A stretch of 64,000 bases of DNA from Thermodesulfobacterium sp. TA1. GTDB lineage: Bacteria > Desulfobacterota > Thermodesulfobacteria > Thermodesulfobacteriales > Thermodesulfobacteriaceae. Numbering within the stretch: the stretch's first letter is position 1; every line of letters starts with the position of its first letter. The notes below the pieces were generated by a model. The model was not told the origin of the DNA and searched no databases. It saw nothing but the letters and a program-made list of their open reading frames with translations. Below, one piece after another: positions 5,667 through 58,097 of this stretch. The translations under genes and the position numbers were made by a program. The stretch spans positions 310,001 to 374,000 of the forward strand of contig NZ_CP043908.1 in NCBI RefSeq assembly GCF_008630935.1, in the 5' to 3' direction.

Positions 5667-6756
5667 TTTTAAAGACCCTCAGAGGGTAAAGCTTTTAGCT
5701 GAGCTTATCAAAAAAGAAGTAGAGGCAATAGGAAGGCCTATAAACATCATGGAATTTTGCGGAGGCCATACTCACGTTATCTTAAAAAATGGGTTAGACG
5801 AACTATTAAAAGGCTATGTAAACTTTTTACACGGGCCTGGATGCCCTGTTTGTGTAACCGCTTTAGAAAGGGTAGATTTAGCCATAGAGTTGGCTAAGCT
5901 TCCAGGGGTCATCCTTTGCACTTATGGGGATTTGATGCGGGTACCTGGGTCAAAAAGAACCAGCCTTTTAAACTTAAGGGCTGAAGGCTATGATGTACGT
6001 CCGGTTTCTTCATGTTTAGAGGCTATCAAAATAGCTCAGGAATTTCCTGGGAAAAAGGTGGTGTTTTTTGCGATAGGTTTTGAGACCACTGCTCCCCATA
6101 CCGCAGTCCTTATTAAACAAGCCTATCAATTAGGAATTTCAAACCTTTGGGTGGTCTCAAACCATATCTTAGCGATAGAAGTGCTTGATTATCTTCTAAA
6201 AAGCGAAGAAAAACCTTTTATAGAGGCCTTTATCGGTCCAGGACATGTAAGCACCATCACCGGTACTAAAGTTTATCAACCGATAGTCCAGAAATACGGA
6301 ACCCCTATTGTGGTTTCAGGGTTTGAACCTTTAGACCTGCTTCAGGCGGTTTATTTAATAGCTAAACAAAAGAGAGAAGGGCGTTGTGAGGTAGAAATTC
6401 AGTATACCCGTTCGGTTGACCAACAAGGCAACCTTAAGGCCCAAGAGCTTTTAAAAGAGGTTTTTGTAATAAGGGACTTTTTCCCTTGGAGAGGATTGGG
6501 GGAGATACCTAACAGCGCCTATGCCATAGCCCCTAAATATGAAACTTTAGACGGAGAAAGGGTTTTTAAAATAGACCTTTCTATTTCTAAAGAACATCCT
6601 CAGTGTTTATGCGGAAAGGTTATAAAAGGGCTTAATAAACCTACTGATTGTAAACTTTTTGGTAAAGCCTGCACCCCTCAAAATCCTGTAGGTCCTTGTA
6701 TGGTCTCTTCAGAAGGTGCTTGCTTAGCTTATTTTAAGTACAGAAAGATTTCTTAG
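5629..6756 (+). CDS. hypD: Hydrogenase maturation protein HypD
   Basis: HypD is the [4Fe-4S] scaffold on which the NiFe-hydrogenase Fe(CN)2CO unit is assembled with HypC and HypE. It is 375 residues, the family length. Motifs seen are FCGGHTH (C44), GPGCPVC (C72, C75), and a cysteine-rich C-terminus (CLCGKV, CKLFGKAC, GPCMVSSEGAC) that binds the cluster. The ATG at 5629 lies inside hypC. The resulting MKYLGSL start aligns with the usual HypD beginning. A strong terminator follows within 100 nt. Confidence 0.96.
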   Translation: MKYLGSLNQTWNSFKDPQRVKLLAELIKKEVEAIGRPINIMEFCGGHTHVILKNGLDELLKGYVNFLHGPGCPVCVTALERVDLAIELAKLPGVILCTYGDLMRVPGSKRTSLLNLRAEGYDVRPVSSCLEAIKIAQEFPGKKVVFFAIGFETTAPHTAVLIKQAYQLGISNLWVVSNHILAIEVLDYLLKSEEKPFIEAFIGPGHVSTITGTKVYQPIVQKYGTPIVVSGFEPLDLLQAVYLIAKQKREGRCEVEIQYTRSVDQQGNLKAQELLKEVFVIRDFFPWRGLGEIPNSAYAIAPKYETLDGERVFKIDLSISKEHPQCLCGKVIKGLNKPTDCKLFGKACTPQNPVGPCMVSSEGACLAYFKYRKIS

Positions 6757-56068: not shown

Positions 56069-56988
56069 ATGAGTTTAGCCTATGAATATGAGATAGCCGT
56101 TATCGGAATAGGCCCTGCTGAATACAGGCAGGGTTACATTCCGGCAGAAGGAAACATAAGGTAGTTTTATTGGGAAAGTTGGAAGAAAGTGCTCTTTGGC
56201 AGGCACATATAGAAAACTACTTTGGTTTTTCCGAAAAAATAGACGGAAAGGTTTTGCTTGAAGAAGGTTTGAAGGCTATAAAAAAGGTAGGCGTAGACCT
56301 AGTTTTTGAGGATTTAGTAGCTATAGAACCCTTAGAAATAGGTTTTAAGCTTACTACTGAAAAAGAAAAAACGATTACTGCTCTTTCTTTAGTGCTTGCA
56401 ATGGGAGTGAAAAGAAAAAAGAAGGTGTTTAAACAAGAAGAGAAGTTTGTAGGTAAAGGGCTCTCTTATTGTGCTGACTGTGATGCCTGGTTTTATAAAG
56501 GGAAAAAAGTTGTGGTTTTAGGAGATGGTAGTGCTGCCATCCACGGAGCTAAGATTTTAAAAAAATTTGCTGAAAAAGTTTATTTTTACGGTTTAAAGCC
56601 TTTTTCTGAAGGGGAACTTTCTGAATTAAGGACTGTGGGGATAGAAGTTTTAGAAAAAAAACCGGTAGAGATTGTAGGAGAGACAGAGGTAAAAGGAATT
56701 TTTTTAGAAGATGGGTCTCAAATAGAATTAGACGGAATATTTATAGAGATAGGCGCAAAAGGCCCTATAGAGCTTCTCGCCCCTATAGGTATTGAGCTTG
56801 ACCCAGAGACCTTTAGCTATGTCAAAGTAGATAGAAAAATGCAAACCAACATTAAAGGGGTTTTTGCCTGCGGAGACCTTACCGGTCCGCCTCTTCAGTT
56901 GGCTAAGGCAGTAGGAGAGGGATGCGTAGCAGGACTTTCTGCCTCAGATTACGTGAAAGAAGTATTAAAGAAAACTAAGGAGGGATAA
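56069..56988 (+). pseudogene. Thioredoxin reductase-like flavoprotein with a single-base frameshift
   Basis: Translation from ATG 56069 (GGAGG at 56054-56058) gives YEIAVIGIGPA, the start of an FAD-binding domain, but hits a stop at 56162. Shifting frame after 56119 restores a perfect continuation: GIQAGLHSGRRKHKVVLLGK and then the rest of the protein to 56988. One missing G in the GPAG codon explains this. The restored product is 306 aa with redox CADC, the NADPH loop VVVLGDGSAA and the FAD motif FACGDLTGPPLQLAKAVGEG. Either the gene is recently broken or the base is a sequencing error. The downstream part alone cannot bind FAD. Confidence 0.88.
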
Positions 56989-56990
56989 AA

Positions 56991-58097
56991 ATTATTTGGT
57001 ATAAAAAATTAGAAATCTCTTTAGAAAATCTAAAAAAGAACCTAAAAGCTTTAAAAGGGCTTTTACCCGAAGGGACTAAAGTCCTTCCTGTTATCAAAAA
57101 TGATGCCTATGGGCATGGGCTTATAGAAGTGGCTAAAACCCTTGCTAAAGAAGGTGTTTGGGGTTTCGGGCTTTCTGAACCTCAAGAGGCTTATTTTTTA
57201 AGAAAGGCAGGTTTTAAACACCCCTTACTTCTCCTTTCTGGATTTGAAAAGGACTGGTTAGAAGAAATGTTTCGCCTTGAGATAACCCCGGTGGTTACTA
57301 ATTTTAAGGCCTTAGAATGGCTTGAGGAATTAGGTAAAAAAAACGAAAAAAAAATTAGTTTTCATCTCAAAGTAGATACGGGAATGCATCGTTTTGGAAT
57401 AAGTAAAGAAGAGTTAACGAAGACGATAGATAAGATTAAAAACAGCAGTTTTTTACATTTAGAAGGGATTATGACTCATCTTGCTTGTTCTGAAAAACCA
57501 GACTCAGAACTTACCCAATCGCAACTTTCTAATTTTAAAAAGGCTTTAGAGATTTTACATCAGGCAAACCTTGTTCCTTCTTATGTGCATTTTGCAAACT
57601 CAGGAGGGATTATTTTTTCATCTGAAAAGGGAAATTTAGTAAGGCCAGGAATTAGTCTTTATGGAGGGTATCCAGACCTTTCCGCTAAGGAGAAGATTAA
57701 ATTATATCCTGTGATGACTTTAAGGTCACGTATCGTTGAGTTAAAAAAACTTCGAAAAGGAGATTATGCAGGCTATGGTCCTACGTTTAAGGCAGAAAGG
57801 AATACCCTTTTAGGTATAGTACCGGTAGGCTACGGAGATGGATATTTAAGAAGTCTTGGAAATAAAGGTTTTGCCTTTTTTAGAGACAGAAGGGTGCAGG
57901 TAGTAGGTACAGTTTCTATGAAAGCCCTTTATGTTGACTTAACTGAGATTGAGTCTCCTCAAATAGGAGAAGAGATTATACTTCTTGGTGGAGACAACCG
58001 AGAGGTTCCTGCTGAGGAACTGGCTATGCTTGGAGGAACTATTTGTTATGAGCTTCTTTGTGGTTTAGGAAGGGCTATACCAAGAGAATATCGATAA
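56991..58097 (+). CDS. alr: Alanine racemase, apparent AUU start codon
   Basis: Alr makes D-alanine for peptidoglycan. The PLP lysine motif PVIKNDAYGHG lies upstream of the first in-frame ATG/GTG/TTG (GTG 57129), so that start is impossible. The frame stays open back to the preceding stop. The only sensible start is ATT at 56991, placed 7 nt after GGAGG (56979-56983). This gives IIWYKKLEISLENLKKNLK, matching the usual N-terminus, and a normal 368 aa. Other motifs are the GTVSMKALYVDLT segment in the region of the catalytic Tyr and the RPGISLYGGYP loop. The next ATT (56994) is also possible. Confidence 0.88.
   Translation: MIWYKKLEISLENLKKNLKALKGLLPEGTKVLPVIKNDAYGHGLIEVAKTLAKEGVWGFGLSEPQEAYFLRKAGFKHPLLLLSGFEKDWLEEMFRLEITPVVTNFKALEWLEELGKKNEKKISFHLKVDTGMHRFGISKEELTKTIDKIKNSSFLHLEGIMTHLACSEKPDSELTQSQLSNFKKALEILHQANLVPSYVHFANSGGIIFSSEKGNLVRPGISLYGGYPDLSAKEKIKLYPVMTLRSRIVELKKLRKGDYAGYGPTFKAERNTLLGIVPVGYGDGYLRSLGNKGFAFFRDRRVQVVGTVSMKALYVDLTEIESPQIGEEIILLGGDNREVPAEELAMLGGTICYELLCGLGRAIPREYR

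Follow-up and report, generated by a model that had tools for sequence, protein, structure and literature searches.

The window analyzed in this study, a stretch of 64,000 nucleotides (bases 310001-374000) of the single-contig, 1.83 Mb genome of Thermodesulfobacterium sp. TA1, contains the alanine racemase gene alr on the forward strand at window positions 56991-58097. The gene codes for a protein of 368 amino acids that matches PF01168 and PF00842 over their full length, scores 354 bits against TIGR00492 (cut-off, 168 bits), and resembles solved alanine racemases in sequence. The PLP lysine lies in the active-site region VIKNDAYGHG (57087-57119, forward strand; Lys codon at 57096), and the presence of this motif together with the two full-length domains identifies the product as an alanine racemase. 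Only one match to alr was found in the whole genome, so the gene is single copy, and the nearest named relative found was Thermodesulfobacterium hveragerdense, whose Alr is 80% identical. Upstream on the same strand, a trxB-like gene (56069-56988), whose frame is broken near 56120, ends 2 nt before the putative AUU start codon of alr (56991-56993, forward strand). The Shine-Dalgarno sequence of alr, AAGGAGGG (56977-56984, forward strand), stands 6 nt before this AUU. A second ATT follows as codon 2 (56994-56996, forward strand); it is a less likely alternative start.

The alr frame is interrupted by TAA at 56976-56978 and then continues with the codons GGA GGG ATA AAA ATT ATT TGG TAT AAA AAA. 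This frame contains no ATG, GTG, TTG, or CTG from the stop at 56976 up to the codon of the catalytic lysine (57096), and the only start-like codons in this interval are ATA at 56985, ATT at 56991 and 56994, and ATC at 57015 and 57093. The first canonical codon in the frame is the GTG at 57129, 11 residues beyond the catalytic lysine. The earlier note on this DNA had claimed that the PLP-lysine motif precedes the first in-frame ATG, GTG, or TTG, and that only start-like codons of the ATT/ATC type stand before it; both statements were borne out, with ATA added to the list. It had also placed the ATT at 56991 at 7 nt behind a strong Shine-Dalgarno sequence, of which the strong Shine-Dalgarno sequence stood and the spacing was corrected to 6 nt. 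Translation from 56991 gave the expected N-terminus, with matches that begin at profile position 1 of PF01168 and at position 5 of TIGR00492, while translation from the GTG at 57129 missed the first 39 positions of PF01168 and scored 51 bits less. The only nearby canonical codon in another frame, TTG at 56996, opens just 2 codons. The ATT at 56994 is not a conserved codon; codon 2 in most relatives is TTT, TTC, ATC, CGC, CAC, or TAT, and only in two genomes (G003 and G006) is the start an ATT directly before TGG, one codon later than elsewhere. The original observation is confirmed, and the sequence indicates that the AUU at 56991 is almost certainly an authentic near-cognate start of alr.

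The gene was sought in 60 relatives and in 41 genomes of the order, and 36 order members had a readable N-terminus. The start site in 34 of these 36 was ATT (29 genomes), ATC (4), or ATA (1), behind a Shine-Dalgarno sequence. In families f1 and f3, 27 of the 35 genomes lack any canonical codon from the in-frame stop up to the ATT, ATC, or ATA, so that the start is forced, and in 10 genomes of these families no canonical codon occurs from the in-frame stop all the way to the catalytic lysine. The other eight f1 and f3 genomes carry a canonical codon somewhere upstream of the start site; three of them are ambiguous (G016, G018, and G040), having ATG or TTG close to the start, and in five more the canonical codons lie farther upstream. 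In G006, a single codon separates the ATT from the in-frame stop. One exception, G014, carries an ATG two codons before the aligned start position, which shows that the weak start is not indispensable. The other, G030 of family f2, has its ATG further upstream. Among the readable alr genes fetched from other families of the phylum, most have ATG at a plausible place, and one (G056) has TTG only. The site combines the lack of a usable canonical codon, a Shine-Dalgarno sequence at initiation distance, and conservation across species, as expected of a conserved AUU-class start.

In the Alr tree (midpoint root), families f1 and f3 formed one group with support of 100/99, separate from G030 and the outgroups. 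From an informal reading of this tree, the AUU most plausibly arose on the stem of f1 and f3 and was later replaced by AUC about four times, by AUA once, and by AUG once. A pattern found in 34 of 36 order members is explained neither by chance nor by a base error in the TA1 genome. The comparison of this codon in related genomes, which the earlier note had proposed, returned ATT and not ATG, and with it a base error at 56991 is excluded. A sequencing or assembly error, with ATG as the true codon or with an indel that hides an upstream start, is practically negligible as an explanation: the one-base difference that breaks the adjoining trxB-like gene makes an error in this stretch conceivable, but ATT, ATC, or ATA stands at the same place in 34 relatives, including separately assembled complete genomes.

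The codon choice at the site also differs from that of ordinary isoleucine. ATT was used in 29 of 34 sequences at the alr start, versus 7/34, 11/33, 12/33, 8/29, and 9/33 at five conserved internal Ile columns. The Ile usage of the individual genes predicts 12.4 ATT codons at the start, and none of 200,000 simulations reached 29; the alr sequences are related, so the matched Ile columns are a better control than the simulation. The excess of ATT over the internal columns indicates that the codon behaves as a start rather than as an ordinary isoleucine.

The duplex between the alr Shine-Dalgarno sequence and the 16S tail was calculated at -13.2 kcal/mol, which ranks it in the top 13% by strength among 248 starts with a median of -8.1 kcal/mol, and the values at the same site in relatives ranged from -8.4 to -15.9 kcal/mol. 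The 16S tail found in the TA1 genome, GGATCACCTCCTTT, is standard. A special initiator tRNA was considered and rejected, as only one initiator-like tRNA was found, with anticodon CAU.

These components bear on whether start choice is relaxed throughout the clade, through an altered IF3 or a special initiator tRNA, which would make alr one of many AUU genes. The IF3 of the clade is full length, and most genomes of genera g1, g2, and g6 carry Ser at the position of E. coli Arg99. Changes at R99 of E. coli IF3 loosen discrimination, and the Ser residue is the point in favor of this explanation. However, Arg is kept in G012, family f3, and genera g3-g5, whose alr also starts with AUU or AUC, so Ser at this position is not the cause of the AUU start; the sole initiator-like tRNA with its CAU anticodon argues in the same direction. 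In addition, about 69% of the TA1 genome was compared stop to stop with about 68% of that of G013, giving 870 non-overlapping homologous pairs with at least 50% identity, and the pairs whose conserved sequence reached furthest in front of any canonical codon were checked visually. Among these 870 pairs from two species, alr was the only gene needing a non-canonical start, and a clade-wide relaxation of start choice is accordingly very improbable. The screen recovered the frameshift arrangement of prfB (release factor 2; L124 around 11456; G000:C1 about 201456), which served as its positive control. The screen also flagged a multihaem cytochrome gene containing a TGA in frame, a tRNA that had been translated as if coding, and likely shadow frames or extensions in front of a normal start. 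The TGA of the cytochrome gene (TPG*QDFIT; L125 around 6146-6148; G000:C1 about 216146) is at the same place in TA1 and G013, and with flanks conserved on both sides it is a candidate selenocysteine codon.

The trxB-like gene precedes alr in most g1 genomes and in g2 and g6, with its stop 1-21 nt before the start. In TA1 and most of the genus it ends 1-2 nt before the ATT, which is the arrangement expected if ribosomes finishing the trxB-like gene re-initiated at the AUU by translational coupling, so that a good start codon would be unneeded. However, in G003, G006, G008, genera g3-g5, and family f3 another gene, often divergent, lies upstream of alr, and ATT or ATC is kept. Since AUU or AUC persists through changes of the upstream gene, coupling does not explain the alr start. 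Every alr site also has its own Shine-Dalgarno sequence, and the trxB-like frame is broken in TA1. Taken together, coupling is a highly unlikely explanation. The break itself is a one-base shift relative to relatives near 56120, in the region of the FAD-binding motif, and may be either a real mutation or a sequencing error; the frame is intact in G013, G001, and others, and the copy in G007 has an internal stop. A frameshift fusion of alr to the upstream gene was rejected, because that gene is different or divergent in many relatives.

That an AUU became fixed in the gene of a core cell-wall enzyme and has persisted in 34 species of two families is a sign that weak initiation was selected. We consider that the near-cognate start has been kept by selection in the order and that it most likely acts as a translational attenuator of Alr synthesis, a reading to which we assign a probability of about 0.72 on the sequence evidence. 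AUU is read by initiator tRNA with a third-base mismatch, and IF3 destabilises such complexes. On the proposed mechanism, alr of TA1 and of nearly the whole order would be translated from an AUU that a Shine-Dalgarno sequence about 5-10 nt upstream positions and that the ordinary initiator tRNA with anticodon CAU decodes. The weak codon would have been fixed in the ancestor of the two families and then maintained by selection. IF3 would destabilise the AUU initiation complexes, holding Alr output to a small fraction of the AUG rate, and a shortage of IF3 relative to 30S subunits should raise this output. The combination of a strong Shine-Dalgarno sequence and a weak codon fits strong recruitment with weak initiation. 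A low Alr rate, its sensitivity to IF3, and a benefit to the cell are what we infer: the AUU start most likely keeps Alr synthesis low, is probably IF3-sensitive, and likely has a regulatory role.

The closest alternative is that alr does start at AUU but that the codon just fixes Alr at a constant low level, without regulation through the IF3 level in vivo; we regard this as a serious possibility, somewhat short of even odds. The same alr sequence evidence agrees with it, the AUU start of S. aureus cvfC1 shows no medium dependence (PMC13009471), and infC is not AUU-started in the clade, so that nothing suggests wide swings of IF3. However, a weaker Shine-Dalgarno sequence, GUG, or UUG could also give a low level, yet the Shine-Dalgarno sequence of alr is strong and its codon has been kept in the class that IF3 discriminates against. 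The earlier note's suggestion that initiation-factor levels may tune cell-wall precursor synthesis is plausible and follows from the known IF3 biology of infC and sigR, but the sequence would look the same under plain low expression. The infC gene starts with ATG in TA1 and with GTG or TTG in relatives, varying by genus (infC at L060 1471-1995; loci L037-L066); an AUU-class infC start is absent in TA1 and no AUU start of infC was found in the clade. Without an AUU start of infC, the feedback loop of E. coli is missing in the clade. The case for an infC-type loop is weaker for it, the AUU start of alr is untouched, and the analogy to infC drawn in the earlier note needs correcting on this point. 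It is doubtful that alr is a dedicated sensor gene through which the balance between IF3 and free 30S subunits sets wall precursor synthesis where the AUU control of infC is absent. If this sensor reading were true, wall growth would be coupled to the state of the ribosomes; more generally, if the start is IF3-sensitive, peptidoglycan precursor supply would be linked to translation initiation.

The alr start joins the known near-cognate starts of infC, pcnB, ccpN, and sigR as a real, conserved, and rare case, and it lies outside the usual examples of infC and regulators. A search of the open-access literature turned up no publication that describes an AUU start for alr. In E. coli pcnB, the AUU start limits expression of the enzyme; pcnB is likewise an AUU-started enzyme gene, but it codes for poly(A) polymerase, whose function is unrelated. 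The infC gene of E. coli also has an AUU-class start of the IF3-discriminated kind behind a Shine-Dalgarno sequence (cited in PMC5472188). However, there IF3 controls its own gene, whereas alr codes for a cell-wall enzyme and infC in the clade starts with ATG, GTG, or TTG. Similarly, S. aureus cvfC1 (AUU) and ccpN (AUA; also in B. subtilis) have conserved near-cognate starts with strong Shine-Dalgarno sequences, and in S. aureus such AUU and AUA starts yield about 10% of the activity of an AUG (PMC13009471). Those genes code for a regulator or small protein of Firmicutes and were mapped experimentally, whereas alr codes for a core enzyme in an unrelated order and is known from sequence. In Streptomyces, sigR has a conserved non-canonical start outside infC, a GTC that IF3 represses, as demonstrated by experiment (PMC5472188); it differs from alr in its codon, in coding for a sigma factor, and in this experimental proof of IF3 control. 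Like alr, Borrelia burgdorferi pncA (BBE22) codes for a metabolic enzyme and has an AUU start that annotation overlooked, with loss of needed N-terminal residues (PMC13398362), but it is described as one plasmid gene in one species, whereas alr is order-wide, chromosomal, and single-copy. Gene callers restricted to ATG, GTG, and TTG would remove the catalytic lysine from Alr.

Searches of four alr loci gave no Rfam family, and the RNA folds around the alr start had no structure common to all species. In TA1 and its closest relatives, though not in all species, the predicted fold of 56977-57055 pairs the alr Shine-Dalgarno sequence with UCUC(C)UUU in the first codons of alr.
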